Origin: an uncultured Leptolinea sp.
GTDB lineage: Bacteria; Chloroflexota; Anaerolineae; Anaerolineales; Anaerolineaceae
NCBI GenBank assembly: GCA_903828565.1
Contig: CAIKMQ010000003.1
Span: 186,001 to 250,000 of the forward strand
Direction: 5' to 3'
DNA: 64,000 nucleotides
Positions within the stretch are counted from its first letter, which is position 1. Each line of letters begins with the position of its first letter. Positions 39,028 through 47,436 of the stretch are shown one piece after another. The translations under genes and the position numbers were made by a program. A model generated the notes under the pieces. The model made no database searches. It worked only from the letters and a program-made list of their open reading frames with translations, and had not been told where the DNA came from.

Positions 39028-39057
39028 CCGCAGAAGTTTTCACCCTTCTGCGGTTTT
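39028..39057 (+). terminator. Terminator after the SAM hydrolase gene
   Basis: CCGCAGAAG pairs with CTTCTGCGG across an 8-nt loop, then TTTT. It ends only 4 nt before the next gene's -10 box. Confidence 0.82.
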
Positions 39058-39061
39058 CCCC

Positions 39062-39067
39062 TATAAT
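39062..39067 (+). promoter_or_regulatory. -10 box of the AddB-like gene, leaderless-type
   Basis: TATAAT, then six bases, then the ATG at 39074. TTCACC 17 nt upstream is a possible -35 lying inside the terminator hairpin. Confidence 0.65.
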
Positions 39068-39073
39068 ACCTGT

Positions 39074-41224
39074 ATGCTTCCCCGGGATCCACTCACCGCT
39101 GACCAACAGGCGATCCTTGATCTGCCTGCGGATGCGCGCGTCTGGGTGGAAGGCTCGGCTGGCAGTGGAAAAACGACGGCAGCGGCGGCACGGGTAGCGA
39201 TGCTAGTTCAGCAGGGCATCCCCGCGCAGCAGATCCTGATCCTGTTGCCGCAGCGGACTCTTGCAGGGCCATACCAGCAGGTGATGGATAGCCCTGAGTT
39301 CCCCACCGGCGGCCGGCCGGATATTTTAACGCTCAACGGCCTGGCTCAGCGCTCGTTGATGCTTTTCTGGCCGCTGGTGGCAAAAGCGGCCGGGTTTGCC
39401 AGCCCGAACAGCCCCCCCGTTTTTCTGACGATGGAAACCGCCCAGTACTACATGGCGCGGGTTGCGGAACCCCTGCTGCGGAAGGGCTATTTCGCAGCGA
39501 TTAAACTGGCCCCCAACCGCCTCTATAGCCAGCTGTTGGACAATCTGAACAAGTCGGCACTGGTAGGCTTCCCGCATTCCGAGATCGGCAGCCGGCTGGC
39601 ATCAGCCTGGACCGGGCCATCATCCCAAATGAGGGTATATGAACAGGCACAGGAAGTGATCTCCGCATTCAGGCAGGAATGCCTGGCACGCAATCTGCTG
39701 GATTTTTCTTTGCAGATCGAGATCTTCAATAAGCAGCTTCAGCCAGCTTTGTTGTTTCAACAGTACGTTCAGACGCGTTATCGCTACATCATTGCTGATA
39801 ATTTGGAAGAGGATACCCCGGCAGCTCATGATATGCTGCTGAACTGGCTGCCGGCAGTGGATGGCGCTTTGCTCTTGTATGATACCGCCGCCGGATACCG
39901 GCGTTTTCTGGGGGCAGATCCGGAAGATGCGCGGAAGCTCAAAGATCACTGCCAGGTATTGAACTGCGATCCGCTGCCATCTCAACCCGCCGGCTTGCGC
40001 GTGTTTACCTCAGCCTTTTCCGCGGCCCTGGGTTTGCCGATAGATGAGCCAATAGGTGAAATACCGGCCCCTCCCTTGCCGGAAAGCGAAGTGCTGGCAG
40101 CCATCCGGCCGATCTCTACGCGCTTTTACCCGCAGATGCTGGAAACCGCAGCAAAAGAAGTGGCCAGAGTGATCGAGAATGGCACGCCGGCTGCGGAGAT
40201 CGCGATACTGGCACCATACCTGACGGACCGTCTGCGGTTTTCATTGACCGAACTGCTGGCGGCAAAAAAGGTCAACACCCGTGTGCTGCGGCCTTCCCGC
40301 ACAATGCAGCAAGAGAGCGCCATACGCTGCCTGCTGGTGCTGGCGCGGGTCGCCCATCCGGGCTGGCAGATGCCTCCCCTGCGGGCAGATTTTACCGCCA
40401 TGCTGTCAACAGCCATCAAGGACCTCGACCCCATCCGAGCCGGCATACTCGCAGAGATCGTTCAGCCGCGCAGGGATGATGCTGCGCTCCCGGGGGATTT
40501 TGCCAGCATCCACCTCTCAGCCAAAGAAAGGATCACCTTCACCTTCGGTGAGCTGTATTCCGAGCTGCGCGACTGGCTGATCAATTACGCCACGGAGCCT
40601 CCCCTGCAGCTGGAATACTTCTTTAGCCGGATTTTCGGGGAACTGTTGACCCGCCCGGGTTTTGGTTTCTTTGGCGACCAAGAAGCAGGGAAGGTGACAG
40701 CTAACCTGATCGAATCTGCCAGGAAGTTCAGGCAGGCGGTTCAGGGTGTGCTGGCTTCAGATGAGATCCCGCAGGAGTTTATCAGCGCTGTGGATCAAGG
40801 CCTGATCTCGGCGCAGTATTTACGCAGTTGGGAAGCGCCGCAGGAAGCCGCAGTAACGCTGGCGCCAGCGTATTCCTTCCTGCTGCAAAACCGTCCTGCA
40901 GCAGTTCAGGTCTGGCTGGATGTCGGAAGCAATGCCTGGTATGAACGCCTGGAACAGCCGCTGACGCACCCGTTTGTGCTTAGCCGCCAGTGGCAGCAAG
41001 GTGATGTCTGGGATGATGCTCGGGAGGCACAGGAAAACCGCCAGGCGCTCCTCCGGCTGGTTCAGGGTTTGGCTCGCCGTTGCACCAGCCAGATATTGTT
41101 GATGCACTGTGAGGTGGGTGAGCAAGGTTACGATCAATCCGGGGCGCTCATACGCAATTCCGCCTTTGCCTACACACGGGTCCGCCGGGCAGCCAATCAA
41201 CCAACAGAGGCCAGCGATGTTTGA
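39074..41224 (+). CDS. AddB-like / SF1 helicase-related repair protein, probably helicase-dead
   Basis: 716 aa. The N-terminal Walker A is intact (VEGSAGSGKTTAAAAR, about 28-43), and UvrD-like segments follow (ILILLPQRTLAGPYQQV, DILTLNGLAQRSL). The expected DExQ of motif II appears as YIIADNLEED, lacking the catalytic Glu position, and the late helicase motifs are not recognisable. This resembles the role of AddB or AdnA as a scanning, non-translocating partner. The last 8 nt overlap the next helicase gene. I find no nuclease motif in it. Confidence 0.7.
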   Translation: MLPRDPLTADQQAILDLPADARVWVEGSAGSGKTTAAAARVAMLVQQGIPAQQILILLPQRTLAGPYQQVMDSPEFPTGGRPDILTLNGLAQRSLMLFWPLVAKAAGFASPNSPPVFLTMETAQYYMARVAEPLLRKGYFAAIKLAPNRLYSQLLDNLNKSALVGFPHSEIGSRLASAWTGPSSQMRVYEQAQEVISAFRQECLARNLLDFSLQIEIFNKQLQPALLFQQYVQTRYRYIIADNLEEDTPAAHDMLLNWLPAVDGALLLYDTAAGYRRFLGADPEDARKLKDHCQVLNCDPLPSQPAGLRVFTSAFSAALGLPIDEPIGEIPAPPLPESEVLAAIRPISTRFYPQMLETAAKEVARVIENGTPAAEIAILAPYLTDRLRFSLTELLAAKKVNTRVLRPSRTMQQESAIRCLLVLARVAHPGWQMPPLRADFTAMLSTAIKDLDPIRAGILAEIVQPRRDDAALPGDFASIHLSAKERITFTFGELYSELRDWLINYATEPPLQLEYFFSRIFGELLTRPGFGFFGDQEAGKVTANLIESARKFRQAVQGVLASDEIPQEFISAVDQGLISAQYLRSWEAPQEAAVTLAPAYSFLLQNRPAAVQVWLDVGSNAWYERLEQPLTHPFVLSRQWQQGDVWDDAREAQENRQALLRLVQGLARRCTSQILLMHCEVGEQGYDQSGALIRNSAFAYTRVRRAANQPTEASDV

Positions 41225-43454
41225 GCCGCGCCCTTCTCAAAAGGAGATACTGGCTTACACCGGTGGTTATATGGGGATATCCGCCGTGCCGGGCAGCGGG
41301 AAGACGCATACCCTTTCCGCCCTGACTGCCGGCATCATCGGCTCGGGCGTATTGCTGGAAGATCAGGAAGTTCTGGTAGTTACGCTGGTCAACTCGGCGG
41401 TCACTAATTTTTCGCGGCGGGTGGAACTCTTTCTCAAAGATACCGGTACGCTGCCGGGTTTTCAGTACCGGGTACGGACGTTACACGGCCTGGCCAATGA
41501 CATCGTCAGAGAACGGCCCGCTCTATGCGGCCTCTCCAGTGAGTTCACGATCCTGGATGAGCAGGAAACAGGGCGGGTGATCCGCCAGTCCGCAGCTGCC
41601 TGGCTACAAACGCATGCCACCGAAATGGAAAAATACCTGTCACCCACCCTGTCGGCTGGCTCCCTTTCCAAAGCTCGGCAGCAGGATCTGCCGAAGCTTG
41701 TGCAAGAAATGGCCACCGCTTTCATTCGCACGGTGAAAGACCGGCGTTTGACGGATGAACAGGTGGCCGAAATTGGCCAGCAGGCTCGCTTGGTTGGCAT
41801 GGACGCACTGGTGGTGTGCACCGGTATTTACGCGGATTACGAACGCGCTCTGAATTATCGCAATGCCCTTGATTTTGACGACCTGATCCGCAATGCGCTG
41901 GCAGCCCTGCATTCCGACCAGAGCCTGCTGGAAAGGCTGCGGCATCGCTGGCCGTACATTCTGGAAGATGAAGCGCAAGACAGCAGCCTGCTGCAGCAGG
42001 AGATCCTGCGCTTGCTGGCAGGGGAACCCGGCAACTGGGTACGGGTGGGTGACCCCAACCAGGCCATCTATGCTACTTTTACCACCGCGAACCCGGCATA
42101 CCTGCGTGGTTTTATGCAGATGGAAGGGGTGATCGCCCGGGACCTGCCTGAAAGCGGACGTTCTACCGCATCTATTATCGAACTGGCTAACCACCTGGTC
42201 ACCTGGACGCGAGAAATGCACCCGAACCTGGAAGCCCGGGAAGCCCTGGAGATACCGCTGATCCACCCGGTGCCGGCAGAGGATGCCAGCTCCAACCCGG
42301 ACGATTCAAGGACGATCATTCGTCTGTTGGATAAAAAACTCTCTCCGGATGAAGAGTTGGAAAGGATCGTAGATTCGCTCACAACCTGGCTGCCCCAAAA
42401 TCAGCAGCGTACGGTGGCTGTGCTCAGCTCCCTGAATGAACATCTGGAAAACCTGGCAGAAAAGTTGAGGGCACGCAAGATCCCCGTCGTAGAGCTGCTG
42501 CGTTCGACCAGTTCCTCCCGGCTGGCTGCCCGCCGGATCTCTGCCTGGCTTTCCTTCCTGGCAGACCCGCGCAACAGCCAGAAGATGGTTGCGGCTTTTC
42601 TGGCATGGCGCAACGTAGAGGAAGATAGCAGCCAGGCTGTGGTGCGCGCGTGCGCCACTTTGCTGCGTAAATGCTTAAAAACGGAAGAGTACCTCTTTCC
42701 ACAGATCGTCAACTGGCTGGAGCAGCAACCTCTGGCTTCGCAACCTGAGATGGAGCTTTTATTGCTCGATTTTCGCACCTACGCAGTCAAGATGCTGAAG
42801 GTGAGCGACCTGCCCGTGGACGAGCTGACAATCTCTCTGGCCAGTACTTTGTTTACGGAACCGGCTGACCTGGCGGTCGGTTTCAAGCTGGCCGGCATTC
42901 TGCGGACTTCCGCGCAGCTCTACCCGGCGTGGCGCCTGCCGGACATGTCGCTCGAAGCTGCCAGTTTCGCCGAGGGGCGGAAGTTCTCAGGGTTCAGTGA
43001 GGATGATACCGGGTTTGATCCCGGGCAGCACAGGGGCAAGGTGGTGCTGGCTACCATCCATAAAGCCAAAGGGCTGGAGTGGGATCGCGTCTATCTGAGC
43101 TCGCTGAACAACTATGATTACCCGTCCGGTGCGGAAGGGGACATGTATAAAGGCGAGAAGTATTTCTTGCGTAATCAGCTGAACCTTCAGGCGGAGGTTT
43201 TGCATCAATTGCAGCTTGCTCTGGACGGCCGGGAGGATGAGTATTTTGAAGGGCTGGCAGGCATGGAGGACAGGAAGCAGTACATCCGCGAGCGGCTGAG
43301 GGTGCTGTATGTGGGCATTACCCGCGCGCGGGAGGAATTATTGCTCTCATGGAATAGCGGTAAGCGGGGAACATCCAATGAAGCGGTGGCGCTGACCGAG
43401 CTGAAAGATCACCTGGTGCAGCGTGATATGATTCCGGGTGGAAGCACAAGATGA
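41217..43454 (+). CDS. UvrD/AddA-like SF1 DNA helicase
   Basis: 745 aa with all major SF1A motifs: I SAVPGSGKTHTLSAL (about 20-34), II ILEDEAQDSS, III VGDPNQAIYATF, V VVLATIHKAKGLEWDRVYL and VI RLRVLYVGITRAREELLLSW. A 3'-5' translocase is expected. No C-terminal nuclease domain is fused; a separate nuclease follows (4-nt overlap). The start at 41217 matches the UvrD opening PSQKEILAYTGG; the frame extends upstream inside the AddB-like gene. Confidence 0.9.
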   Translation: MFEPRPSQKEILAYTGGYMGISAVPGSGKTHTLSALTAGIIGSGVLLEDQEVLVVTLVNSAVTNFSRRVELFLKDTGTLPGFQYRVRTLHGLANDIVRERPALCGLSSEFTILDEQETGRVIRQSAAAWLQTHATEMEKYLSPTLSAGSLSKARQQDLPKLVQEMATAFIRTVKDRRLTDEQVAEIGQQARLVGMDALVVCTGIYADYERALNYRNALDFDDLIRNALAALHSDQSLLERLRHRWPYILEDEAQDSSLLQQEILRLLAGEPGNWVRVGDPNQAIYATFTTANPAYLRGFMQMEGVIARDLPESGRSTASIIELANHLVTWTREMHPNLEAREALEIPLIHPVPAEDASSNPDDSRTIIRLLDKKLSPDEELERIVDSLTTWLPQNQQRTVAVLSSLNEHLENLAEKLRARKIPVVELLRSTSSSRLAARRISAWLSFLADPRNSQKMVAAFLAWRNVEEDSSQAVVRACATLLRKCLKTEEYLFPQIVNWLEQQPLASQPEMELLLLDFRTYAVKMLKVSDLPVDELTISLASTLFTEPADLAVGFKLAGILRTSAQLYPAWRLPDMSLEAASFAEGRKFSGFSEDDTGFDPGQHRGKVVLATIHKAKGLEWDRVYLSSLNNYDYPSGAEGDMYKGEKYFLRNQLNLQAEVLHQLQLALDGREDEYFEGLAGMEDRKQYIRERLRVLYVGITRAREELLLSWNSGKRGTSNEAVALTELKDHLVQRDMIPGGSTR

Positions 43455-44293
43455 TACCGGAAGATTTCACCTTCAGCCAGCACAGCCTGGCGGACTTCAA
43501 TACCTGCCAGTGGCGTTTCCTGCTGCGGCATGTAGAGCATGTCGCCTGGCCGGCTGCTGAGATGCAAGACCAGGTGACAGCGGACCGGCGGCAGGAGCAG
43601 GGTGTGGCATTCCACCTGCGGGCTATGCAGTATTTTTCCGGCTTGCCGGTGGACCAATTGACCGGCAGTTCAGCGGATGTTGAGCTGGAAGCCTGGTGGC
43701 AAGATTTCCTATCCATCGAGCAGAAACTGCCGTACCGGGTGGAAGGCGGATCAGGCTGGCGTTTGATGCCTGAGCTGCAGTTGAATGCCAGGCTGGGCCG
43801 GCATCGTGTGACGGGAAAATTCGACCTGCTGGCAGCACTCCCCGGTGATGCCTACCAGGTATATGACTGGAAATCCGGTGCACGAGCGCCAGCCAGGGAC
43901 GTGCTGGAAGGACATCCACAGACCAGGCTGTACAGCTGGTTGGTGACCGAAGCCGGCGGGCACGCCCTGGGGTTGGAACAGGGTGGGTTGGACCCCGGGC
44001 TGGTGAGCATGACCTACTGGTATGCCGGCCAACCGGGTACCTGGATCCGTTTTGATTATTCAGCTGCGCAGTTTCAGGCGGATGCCGAACAACTTTCCGC
44101 CCTGCTTGATTACATTGCCAGCTTGCCGGAAGACGGGTTTCGCAAGACCGAGGATACCCGCGCCTGCCGTTTCTGCCTCTACCGCTCGTATTGTGAACGC
44201 GGTTATCGGCCCGGCGCAGCGGATGCGGTGGATGAAACTGCGACCGCCCTCGAGCTCCCCTCATGGGATGAGATCGATACGCTGGAGATCTGA
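43451..44293 (+). CDS. Cas4/AddB-type PD-(D/E)XK nuclease with Fe-S cysteines
   Basis: 280 aa. The nuclease core is GKFDLLAAL followed by YDWKSG (Asp...Asp-x-Lys) and the QTRLYSWL helix Gln. Cysteines at 19, 239, 242 and 248 (FNTCQWRF; CRFCLYRSYC) match the four ligands of the [4Fe-4S] cluster in Cas4, AddB and Dna2. In this operon it likely supplies the end-resection nuclease for the two helicase-like proteins. The stop overlaps the recJ start (TGATG). Confidence 0.88.
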   Translation: MIPEDFTFSQHSLADFNTCQWRFLLRHVEHVAWPAAEMQDQVTADRRQEQGVAFHLRAMQYFSGLPVDQLTGSSADVELEAWWQDFLSIEQKLPYRVEGGSGWRLMPELQLNARLGRHRVTGKFDLLAALPGDAYQVYDWKSGARAPARDVLEGHPQTRLYSWLVTEAGGHALGLEQGGLDPGLVSMTYWYAGQPGTWIRFDYSAAQFQADAEQLSALLDYIASLPEDGFRKTEDTRACRFCLYRSYCERGYRPGAADAVDETATALELPSWDEIDTLEI

Positions 44294-46596
44294 TGCAGCA
44301 GCTCATATCCCGAATCTGGAAAGACCCGGAGCCTGTCGCGCCATCTGATGAGCTGATCCGGCTGACTGGCAGCCGGCTGGCAGCCGAGTTGCTCTGCCGT
44401 AGGGGTTACAGCCAGACGGCAGATGCAGAAAAATTCCTTTTTCCTGAAAGATACATCCCCGCATCCCCGTTCGAACTGCCAGGCATGGCCGAAGCGGTGG
44501 ATTGCCTGACCCGCGCCGGCAGGAATGGAGAGCCGATCTGCGTTTGGGGTGATTTTGATGTGGACGGCCAGACATCCACCACCATCCTTGTTTCCGCATT
44601 GCGTCGCCTGGGAGCGCGGGTATCTCATTTCATCCCGGTGCGCGCCAGGCATTCGCATGGTGTCCACATGGAGCCATTACGTGACCTGGCAGCCGCGGGT
44701 GTGAAGGTATTGCTGACGTGTGATACCGGTATTTCGGCTGCCGCGGAAGTGGAATGGGCGCGCTCGCAGGGGATGAAGGTGGTCATCACCGATCATCATG
44801 AGCTGCCAGCAGTATTGCCGGTGGCTGAGGCCGTGGTCAATCCCCGCTTTCTGCCACCTGGCCATCCACTGGATTCACTGCCGGGCTGTGGGGTGGCTTA
44901 CTTGCTGGCACAGGCACTGCTGCCCGCGCACGCCGCTGAAGATCTGCTGGACCTGGTAGCGCTCGGTCTGGTGGCTGATGCGGCTGAACTGCGTGGTGAA
45001 GCGCGCTACCTGCTGCAGCGCGGGTTGGCAGCGCTGCGTTCGACACAGCGGGCTGGGCTGGTACAGTTGTTCCTGCGGGGCGGGATCAATCAGTCTGCCA
45101 TCAATGAGGAGACGATCAGTTTCACCCTGGCACCACGTTTGAATGCCCTGGGGCGCCTTGAAGATGCCGCCGGCGTGGTGGATTTCTTCACAGCTACCTC
45201 GGCTTCTCAGGCGGCTTTCTTCGCTGAAAGGCTGGAGGGTTTGAATATACGCCGGGTGCAGGCGGTGCGGCAGATCTTGCTGTCCGCAGAGGAAATGATA
45301 CAACGCTCACCCGGATTGTTGGATCTACCGGTACTTGTACTGGCAAACCCGGCATGGGAAAGTGGGGTGTTGGGGATAGTGGCTGCCCGCTTGGTCGAGC
45401 GCTACCATCGGCCGGCCATCCTCTTCCGTGAGAGTGACGGCATGGCAGCCGGATCTGCCAGGTCTGTGAGGGGTATCCATATTACCCAGGCGATCAGCGC
45501 ACATTCGGATATGCTATTTCGTTTTGGCGGGCACCCCATGGCGGCGGGCATAAGCATGCCGGCGGATCGGATTCCTGAGTTCCGCCAGGCGCTGGCATAT
45601 ACCTTACGGTCGCTGCCGGGTGGAATCCCGCAAAATACCCTGCAACTAGACGCGGAAATGCCGATAGCTGAGATATCCATAGAAACCGCGCGCAGCCTGG
45701 AGGTGCTTTCACCATTTGGCGTTGGCAACCCGGCACCGGTTTTCCTCAGCCGTGATCTGAGGGTACGTTCGATCAAACCCCTGGGCAGGGAGAAAGAGCA
45801 TACGCTCTACATTCTGGAAGACAGGGACGGCAAGGTGTATGAAGTAGTCCGCTGGCACTCGATGGGGCAGGATTCACCAGATTTTCAGTTCGACCTGGCA
45901 TATACGCCGCGGATGTCATCCTACCGTGGGGAGGTGAAGCTGCAGTTGGAGTGGGTGGATATCCGCCCGGTACCGCAGCAAGGCGTTGTGAGCCGTCGTC
46001 CGGCGTTGGATGTGGAGGATTGGCGTGACCGCGATGTGCTGTCGGCTCGTGTGGTGGCTGCCGGTGAGCCGGCGGCGCAGATCTGGTGCGAACCGCCGGA
46101 TGCATCCGGGTATGCAGACCGGGGAAGCCTGTTACAGGCCGGCACGCTGTTCATTGCCTTTAACCCTCCCGGGCCGGCAGAGATAGCTGTGGCTTTGCGG
46201 GCTGCCAATCCACGCCGGGTGGTGTTAATGCCTGTCGCCCCTGTGGATGATTCTCCGCAAACCTTTATTCTCCAGTTGAAGGCCGCGGTGAAACCGTACC
46301 TTGCGCCGGGGAAACCACCGGTGTCTGTGGATGGGTTGGCCGCCCGGCTTGGGCATACCGCCGCTACCGTGAATACGGGCCTGCTTTTCCTCGAAGCTTG
46401 CGGCTTGATAGCGCGAACCATTGCTGGTGAGGGGTTGGTCACGCTCAGCCTGCCAGCCTCTTCGATGGTGGCGCTGGAAAGAAAAGCTCAGCTGGAGGTG
46501 AACTTGAGGCGCTTGCTGAAAGAGACAGCGATGTTCAGGAGGAATTTTGCAAGAACATCGGCAGATCAGCTGAAGGTGGATTACTTCACCCGTTGA
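44293..46596 (+). CDS. recJ: RecJ single-strand-specific 5'-3' exonuclease
   Basis: 767 aa. DHH-family motifs: GDFDVDG (86-92), CDTGIS (about 143-148), ITDHHELP (DHH at 167-169), then the DHHA1 domain with FGGHPMAAGISMP (about 412-424) and an OB fold (about 450-560). About 200 extra C-terminal residues include a winged-helix-like region (VDGLAARLGHTAATVNTGLL). It degrades single-stranded DNA in recombination and mismatch repair and closes the repair operon. Confidence 0.94.
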   Translation: MQQLISRIWKDPEPVAPSDELIRLTGSRLAAELLCRRGYSQTADAEKFLFPERYIPASPFELPGMAEAVDCLTRAGRNGEPICVWGDFDVDGQTSTTILVSALRRLGARVSHFIPVRARHSHGVHMEPLRDLAAAGVKVLLTCDTGISAAAEVEWARSQGMKVVITDHHELPAVLPVAEAVVNPRFLPPGHPLDSLPGCGVAYLLAQALLPAHAAEDLLDLVALGLVADAAELRGEARYLLQRGLAALRSTQRAGLVQLFLRGGINQSAINEETISFTLAPRLNALGRLEDAAGVVDFFTATSASQAAFFAERLEGLNIRRVQAVRQILLSAEEMIQRSPGLLDLPVLVLANPAWESGVLGIVAARLVERYHRPAILFRESDGMAAGSARSVRGIHITQAISAHSDMLFRFGGHPMAAGISMPADRIPEFRQALAYTLRSLPGGIPQNTLQLDAEMPIAEISIETARSLEVLSPFGVGNPAPVFLSRDLRVRSIKPLGREKEHTLYILEDRDGKVYEVVRWHSMGQDSPDFQFDLAYTPRMSSYRGEVKLQLEWVDIRPVPQQGVVSRRPALDVEDWRDRDVLSARVVAAGEPAAQIWCEPPDASGYADRGSLLQAGTLFIAFNPPGPAEIAVALRAANPRRVVLMPVAPVDDSPQTFILQLKAAVKPYLAPGKPPVSVDGLAARLGHTAATVNTGLLFLEACGLIARTIAGEGLVTLSLPASSMVALERKAQLEVNLRRLLKETAMFRRNFARTSADQLKVDYFTR

Positions 46597-46609: not shown

Positions 46610-46638
46610 TTGTCAAGGCGGTGGCTTTCTGCTATAAT
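46610..46638 (+). promoter_or_regulatory. Promoter of tRNA-Val
   Basis: TTGTCA (46610-46615), 17 nt, TATAAT (46633-46638), 11 nt before the tRNA 5' end. Confidence 0.8.
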
Positions 46639-46649
46639 CCCGTTACCCA

Positions 46650-46724
46650 GGGCGCGTAGCTCAGCTGGTCAGAGCGCACGGTTCACATCCGTGAGGTTCG
46701 GGGGTTCGAGCCCCTCCGCGCCCA
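46650..46724 (+). tRNA. tRNA-Val (CAC anticodon)
   Basis: 75 nt. Acceptor stem GGGCGCG/CGCGCCC, D arm GCTC...GAGC, anticodon stem CACGG/CCGTG with loop TTCACAT (anticodon CAC, valine GUG), T arm GGGGG-TTCGAGC-CCCTC with one G-U pair, discriminator A. CCA is not encoded. The 3' part is repeated 70 bp downstream. Confidence 0.95.
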
Positions 46725-46842
46725 CTTTCTCTTTAACTCATAGTAGGTTCGAGGGTCCCCACGGGGGGATGATATCCGAGCCCCTCCGCGCCCACTTTCT
46801 CTTTAACTCATAGTAGGTTCGAGGGTCCCCACGGGGGGATGA
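46707..46842 (+). repeat. 66-bp tandem direct repeat including the tRNA-Val 3' end
   Basis: 46707-46772 and 46777-46842 are identical over 66 bp and are separated by TATC or so. Each copy begins with the last 18 nt of tRNA-Val (CGAGCCCCTCCGCGCCCA) and includes a CTTTAACTCATAGTAGG core and a TCCCC...GGGGGA hairpin. This is either a local duplication or a collapsed attachment-site pair left after element loss. Confidence 0.9.
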
Positions 46843-47110: not shown

Positions 47111-47247
47111 GCGACAGAGGAAATTTGATAGTTGGATCGCTTCCGCCATTGAAGTTCTACCCCCACAGGTTGCCATTAAACGGCAAGAATCCCCCAAAGG
47201 TTGCACAGAACGAGGTAAAATAGAGCCAGAAACCGGCAAATATGGCA

Positions 47248-47436
47248 GTTGCAAGACACCACCGTCGCAAGACGGTATTGAAACATCCAATGCAATACTT
47301 GAAATAAATTTCCCATAGTATGGTTGCAAGACACCACCGTCGCAAGACGGTATTGAAACTACTCGGTTTTTGAGCGCATCGTTGCTATAATATGGCAGGG
47401 TTGCAAGACACCACCGTCGCAAGACGGTTTTGAATT
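47248..47436 (+). CRISPR. Orphan CRISPR array: three repeats, two spacers
   Basis: Repeats of 37 bp at 47248-47284, 47323-47359 and 47400-47436; spacers of 38 and 40 bp. The repeat starts GTTGCAAGACACC and ends ATTGAAAC, the usual crRNA 5' handle, and contains a 6-bp stem with a GCAA tetraloop (ACCGTC-GCAA-GACGGT). The third copy differs at three positions (30, 36, 37), marking it as the distal end. No cas genes lie in the window. Repeat type suggests a class 1 system. Confidence 0.9.

Follow-up and report, generated by a model that had tools for sequence, protein, structure and literature searches.

Four overlapping genes and their surroundings

The window, i.e., the whole stretch of 64,000 nucleotides that was analyzed, comes from a genome of 2.22 Mb in 48 contigs with a completeness of 99.25%, and carries four consecutive genes on the forward (+) strand, here called P1 to P4. 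P1 (39074–41224, +) encodes a helicase-like protein of 716 amino acids that has a Walker A motif and a motif II altered to DNxEED, without a nuclease domain. P2 (41217–43454, +), also without a nuclease domain, is a UvrD-type SF1A helicase of 745 amino acids when read from the ATG at 41217; the list of open reading frames gives a GTG upstream, at 41109, as an earlier possible start. P3 (43451–44293, +; 280 amino acids) is a free PD-(D/E)XK nuclease with four invariant cysteines and a predicted Fe–S module of the AddB/AdnA/Cas4 type, and P4 (44293–46596, +; 767 amino acids) is a RecJ paralogue with ~210 extra C-terminal residues. The first-pass annotation had described this layout with overlaps of 1 to 8 nt, and the coordinates bear it out: P1 and P2 share 8 nt, P2 and P3 share 4 nt (ATGA), and P3 and P4 share 1 nt (TGATG), all on the + strand.

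A promoter-like site (TTCACC-17 nt-TATAAT; 39039–39067, +), with 10 of 12 matches, ends 6 nt 5′ of the P1 ATG and, if real, would make the P1 transcript nearly leaderless; six such sites were found against 3.7 expected, which makes the site weak evidence. The next good promoter-like site (46610–46638) lies 5′ of a tRNA-Val gene, and the position of these two sites, one before P1 and one past P4, suggests that P1–P4 form one transcription unit.

Several other features lie nearby. From within the 3′ end of the tRNA-Val(CAC) gene (46650–46725), 66 nt are repeated exactly 70 nt on (46707–46772 and 46777–46842); this may be a duplicated tRNA end of the kind that integration leaves behind, or simply a tandem duplication. 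Three CRISPR-like direct repeats (47240–47434), spaced by 75–77 nt, lie 650–840 bp downstream of P4; none of the seven further window proteins scanned had a PADLOC match, and the repeats are perhaps an orphan or decayed array. The contig that holds the window also encodes a PDDEXK protein of 171 amino acids with a C-terminal cysteine motif (locus L006, 4462–4977, − strand; match C3:70473–70820), which may be a solo-Cas4. Solo-Cas4 is mentioned for many Chloroflexi in PMC5704561.

Domains and folds of the four proteins

The first-pass annotation read the first three proteins as a helicase-like chain with a Walker A motif and a degraded DExQ, a full UvrD helicase, and a free Fe–S nuclease, and each of these assignments holds. 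In P1, the altered motif reads DNLEED, from residue 242. Pfam recognition of the protein is confined to the first ~65 residues, with PF00580 matching residues 9–57 only (36.5 bits), and none of the NCBIfam models matches it. Full-length homologues with 31–51% identity, i.e., far beyond chance, occur across the class, and the closest named relative among the best 80 of 345 named loci is on an Anaerolinea sp. contig (64% identity). We aligned P1 from 30 loci, reduced to 28 rows by leaving out L041 (inner stop) and L023 (odd N-terminus), with the window standing for L013. In these 28 sequences, D242, N243, E245, E246, and D247 are invariant, and G27, A29, G30, G32, K33, T34, and T35 of the Walker A motif (GSAGSGKTT, from residue 27) are conserved at ≥90%, which argues that the altered motif II is a retained trait rather than decay. 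Profile alignments with AddB, AddA, and P2 place DNxEED at motif II, without the Glu that follows the Asp of DExx; the Gln of motif III and the Arg of motif IV are seemingly lost too, the alignments covering the motifs before V and VI. With Walker A kept and the motif II Glu missing, ATP binding by P1 is probable, but the protein should make a poor motor.

An AlphaFold2 model of P1 (mean pLDDT 86.7) has a complete SF1A helicase fold. The highest Z-scores are for UvrD-type chains (4c30_I, Z 29.2, 565 residues, rmsd 8.3; 4c2t_D, Z 29.0, 471 residues, rmsd 3.4); AdnB (9np6_B, Z 24.9, rmsd 4.8) aligns over 628 residues, more than the UvrD-type chains, and residues 21–704 of the model align with residues 2–696 of AddB (4cei_B, Z 21.6, 603 residues, rmsd 6.0). 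Foldseek was also run on this model, and the models or profiles of P1 and P2 both match the RecB helicase. As modeled, P1 corresponds in fold to the portion of AddB and of AdnB that precedes the nuclease. By sequence, P1 has no preference, with profile alignments scoring 95.0 for AddA, 94.8 for AddB, and 94.4 for P2; given this equal nearness, and given that UvrD has the best Z, an AddB-like role for P1 would rest on fold coverage and context. Neither a nuclease domain nor, at 1e-3, a match to ADDB_N (PF21445) was found in P1.

P2 matches PF00580 with 146.7 bits and UvrD_C with 78.8 bits, and all the motifs sought are present (Walker A, DEAQD, GDPNQA, GRS, HKAKGLEW, and ITRA). Its sequence matches are UvrD first, followed by AdnB and AddA chains. 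P2 falls below the NCBIfam cut-offs for AddA (73.5 bits vs. 707.65 for addA_Gpos and 65.7 vs. 860.75 for addA_alphas) and for recB (94.7 bits vs. 696.05), and no nuclease is fused to it. The P2 alignment drew on 30 loci and kept 24 rows (L075, L078, L080, L083, L084, and L098 were omitted); L073 is represented there by the window, whose row starts one codon upstream of the ATG. Since P1 lacks an ADDB_N match and P2 is under the AddA cut-offs, the set is AddAB-like rather than AddAB.

In P3, PDDEXK_1 covers residues 7–249 (82.6 bits), and C19, C239, C242, C248, H55, D125, K141, and Q157 are invariant in 30 of 30 aligned sequences, all 30 loci being included. The four invariant cysteines predict an Fe–S cluster. 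The relatives likewise encode the nuclease as a protein of its own. With the nuclease domain of AddB from the class, P3 aligns at an hhalign probability of 96.5 and all four cysteines pair, whereas it hardly aligns with that of AddA (8.4). The P3 model (pLDDT 83.5) is closest to the nuclease domain of AdnA (Z 18.1, 222 residues, rmsd 2.7 Å), followed by Argonaute-associated Cas4-family proteins (Z 14.7), residues 783–1135 of AddB (Z 13.6), and RecB (Z 9.9); the match to the PADLOC Cas4 model is weak (20.9 bits). From the two fold matches, P1 and P3, though encoded apart, would jointly cover the length of AddB.

P4 is a RecJ, with the DHH, DHHA1, and RecJ OB Pfam domains over cut-off and TIGR00644 at 468.7 bits against 396.9. 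Its C-terminal extension of ~210 residues has weak winged-helix matches only, and this tail alone found no match among PDB chains. An ordinary RecJ of 564 amino acids is encoded elsewhere in the genome, so P4 may be spare for a dedicated role. According to PMC4663267, the C-terminal domain of Deinococcus radiodurans RecJ binds HerA, and P4 resembles that protein in having an extra C-terminal domain, there linked to a helicase partner; the D. radiodurans RecJ (5f54) differs in that it aligns with P4 to residue 562 only and in that the set is without HerA or NurA.

Co-occurrence, gene order, and the conventional AddAB

We searched 150 Anaerolineae genomes. P1 was found in 81 at an E-value of 1e-3, or in 80, about half, after one short match was removed (G068; E 4.3e-4, 71 residues); P2 was found in 80 (E 1e-30) and P3 in 73. 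P1 and P2 are both present in 78 genomes and both absent from 68, with two genomes that have P1 only and two that have P2 only. For P1 and P3, the corresponding counts are 71 with both, 68 with neither, nine with P1 only, and two with P3 only, and all three genes are present in 69 of the 150. Exceptions thus exist: P3 was not found in 9 of the 80 P1 genomes, and a long RecJ is not among the matches listed in 24 of them. We chose the eight families in which P1 is variable to limit the effect of shared ancestry; there, P2 and P3 accompany P1 in 17 of 17 positive genomes and occur in 1 of 11 negative ones (G109, which has both). The phylum was scanned with the P1 profile, three candidates per genome being scored, and 31 of 301 genomes match at 1e-20; these matches apparently all fall in the class (31 of 38 genomes inside and 0 of 263 outside, among the matches listed and with kinship read from the ordering). 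Distance matrices of the four proteins agree (r 0.84–0.93), no more than a shared species history could give. P1, P2, and P3 are a real conserved unit, and the coupling persists where the genes are separated, as in a genome made of a single 4.4-Mb contig (G027) in which P1 lies at ~3.468, P2 at ~3.480, P3 at ~3.598, and the long RecJ at ~2.723 Mb.

RecJ of any kind occurs in 142 of the 150 genomes. Defining a long RecJ as a listed match that reaches query residue 638, we found one, among the matches listed, in at least 56 of the 80 P1-positive genomes and in 0 of the 70 P1-negative ones; G005 and G109 were left uncounted, their best matches running only to residues 493 and 402, where the contigs probably end. 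In the eight variable families, the long RecJ is present in 16 of 17 positive genomes and in 0 of 11 negative ones, again among the matches listed. As a long RecJ was seen only in P1-bearing genomes among the matches listed, RecJ is probably more than a bystander and the set is better named four-part. The earlier description of the locus as a three-part AddAB-like complex plus RecJ stands as to the AddAB-like folds and the behavior of the genes as a unit, but gives way on the number of parts.

The four-gene block of the first-pass annotation also recurs in relatives with its order kept. In the best 80 of 345 named loci, P1–P2 are adjacent in 51, P1–P2–P3 in 37, and all four genes in 28; restricted to the 53 of them where 5.5 kb or more follows P1, the counts are 40, 34, and 25, respectively. 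These counts required a P2 match of at least 250 bits, and elsewhere in the analysis P2 matches below 33% identity were dropped. The best 80 named loci carry titles of Chloroflexota or Anaerolineae groups, and Anaerolinea thermolimosa IMO-1, a cultured organism, is among them. At several loci (e.g., L117, L118, L145, and L148), P1 is alone despite 10 kb of available sequence, without P2, P3, or RecJ, and a linkage tally of the 34 genomes with both positions entered found 19 linked within 12 kb and 15 not, some of the latter perhaps reflecting contig breaks.

Outside the phylum, Salinibacter ruber M8, a member of the Rhodothermota, carries P1–P2–P3–recJ in the same order on its plasmid pSR56, at identities of 41, 39, 35, and 37%, and this order is the strongest single sign that RecJ belongs to the set. 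It suggests that the whole set was transferred between phyla. Walker A is present in the Salinibacter P1 and the DNxEED pattern was not found in it, so that pattern is not fixed outside the class. Plasmid records with P1 relatives come from Salinibacter and Ilyobacter: Ilyobacter polytropus plasmid pILYOP01 (L204, 7944–9917) encodes a distant P1 homologue (20% identity across 91% of the P1 length, E 6e-28) that stands by itself, no nuclease or RecJ being annotated next to it. The 50,697 phage records gave no match, and the viral contigs gave 23 pattern matches, none of them a relative; a phage or viral origin was rejected on these grounds.

A conventional addAB elsewhere in the genome, which the first-pass annotation had set down as counting against its reading, is present, and the stronger claim falls. 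Contig C1 of the same genome (locus L005) encodes an AddB of 1011 amino acids (ADDB_N, 82.6 bits, and PDDEXK_1) that overlaps by 28 nt an AddA of 1107 amino acids with UvrD domains and PDDEXK_1, which makes the set additional to AddAB in this genome. AddB and AddA were aligned in 13 and 11 rows, respectively. Single-sequence and profile searches both found AddB in 43 of the 150 genomes: 29 have P1 and AddB, 51 P1 only, 14 AddB only, and 56 neither, a slightly positive association (Fisher p 0.03). Replacement of AddAB by the set as a rule is unsupported, with AddAB in this genome and AddB in 29 of the 80 P1 genomes. Some of the 56 genomes without a match to either are incomplete. Just upstream of addBA, two open reading frames (L005, 29–2897) read, from their translations, as an SbcD/SbcC-like pair of exonuclease and ATPase.

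Relation to known end-processing machines and possible function

Each of the known machines shares part of the set. The mycobacterial AdnAB (PDB 9np6, 7sjr, and 6ppr) is alike in that P3 resembles the Fe–S nuclease of AdnA, P1 covers the AdnB motor, and P2 resembles AdnB by sequence. It differs in that each AdnAB chain joins a motor to a nuclease, whereas here the nuclease is only in P3, as a free protein. AdnAB is not known to include a RecJ. AddAB (PDB 3u4q and 4cei, and the pair at L005) shares with the set one active motor, a helicase-like partner with a Walker A motif, and an Fe–S nuclease that aligns with that of AddB; here, however, the nuclease is detached from AddB, the AddA nuclease domain and ADDB_N are absent, and RecJ is added. 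RecBCD is alike in the RecB helicase matches of P1 and P2, but the set has no RecD-like domain or second motor, and P3, which has an Fe–S module, scores lower against RecB. Cas4 and the Argonaute-associated Cas4-family proteins (9iac and 9iab) are free Fe–S PD-(D/E)XK nucleases comparable to P3 in size and fold, differing in that no cas or argonaute gene accompanies the set and that P3 scores weakly as Cas4. Also known is an unfused operon of UvrD and a Cas4-like protein, mostly in Clostridiales and outside defense contexts (PMC5704561), in which a free PF12705 nuclease lies beside a UvrD-type helicase; no second helicase-like protein or RecJ is mentioned in that account of the operon. No description of the four-gene set was found in what was read of the main texts of open-licence PMC papers, so the set appears to be undescribed as far as those texts go, the unfused pair of UvrD and Cas4-like protein being already known.

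Our main reading, to which we give a probability of about 0.6, is that the set is a dedicated machine for processing DNA ends, similar in kind to AddAB and AdnAB but divided among separate chains, and additional to AddAB in this genome. Gene order, co-occurrence, folds, and motif conservation are its observed basis. By analogy, P2 would be a 3′–5′ translocating motor that draws DNA in from an end. P1 would act as a weak or non-translocating scaffold with its own ATP site, holding the DNA and docking P2, much as AddB holds DNA and docks AddA in AddAB. P3 would replace the C-terminal Fe–S nuclease domain of AddB or AdnA and cut the strand delivered to it, while the long RecJ, perhaps anchored to the complex through its C-terminal extension much as D. 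radiodurans RecJ binds HerA, would degrade the 5′-ended strand and so provide RecA with a 3′ single-stranded tail. The reading predicts that the proteins form a complex, as well as which chain moves, the strand polarity, resection, a response to Chi, and service in break repair rather than in defense.

The main rival, which we consider unlikely, is an anti-phage or anti-plasmid defense module, Gabija-like or otherwise of UvrD type, that attacks the ends of incoming DNA with RecJ as an auxiliary. It draws on the further cargo of pSR56, where the cassette travels with type I restriction genes, BrnT/BrnA, and a DUF262 protein, on the patchy presence of the set within some families, and on the best PADLOC match of P2, which is GajB (139 bits). 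GajB models also match ordinary UvrD helicases, however, and no GajA-like partner appears among P1, P3, and P4. Nor do the Anaerolineae neighbors resemble a defense island, which was rejected as the setting, the Salinibacter plasmid leaving it partial support: 111 neighboring open reading frames at 29 loci gave few PADLOC matches at 1e-10, headed by DEDDh and PDC-S48 with four each, the other neighbors belong to housekeeping or varied Pfam families, and no relatives were found in phage records or viral contigs.

The four proteins might instead work one after another in a single repair pathway, as independent enzymes outside any complex: a UvrD paralogue, a helicase-like protein, a Cas4-like nuclease, and RecJ. 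The wide spacing of the genes in some genomes, such as G027, fits this, as does the occurrence of the UvrD and Cas4-like operon without the other parts in Clostridiales (PMC5704561); the near-perfect co-occurrence of P1 and P2, the translational overlaps, and folds that correspond to domains of one known complex make it rather improbable. That the locus is a broken-up or frameshifted addAB, as parts resembling AddB in two pieces and an AddA without its nuclease might suggest, is very improbable and was rejected: an intact AddAB exists besides, the split arrangement and its invariant motifs are maintained across the class, and ADDB_N, which the AddB of this genome matches, is missing from P1.

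We consider it possible, at somewhat below an even chance, that the set represents, in the Anaerolineae, a further machine of the RecBCD class beside RecBCD, AddAB, and AdnAB, with motor, silent scaffold, Fe–S nuclease, and dedicated RecJ kept separate, working in parallel to AddAB in some species and as the main resection enzyme where AddAB is absent, and with its four-gene cassette mobile between phyla. AddAB, AdnAB, and RecBCD all have their active nuclease joined to a helicase chain. With a naturally unfused set, one could add or omit the nuclease, the silent helicase-like chain, and the 5′-strand nuclease singly, which would bear on how a strand is handed over to the nuclease in such machines. 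The set also suggests a role for the P1 family, of which Pfam covers the first ~60 residues only and which about half of the sampled Anaerolineae possess, and might explain the retention of a second, longer RecJ in these bacteria. In the neighborhood of the set (29 loci, L103–L181), RNase_T/DEDDh exonucleases are the commonest Pfam family, accounting for 4 of the 111 neighboring open reading frames.
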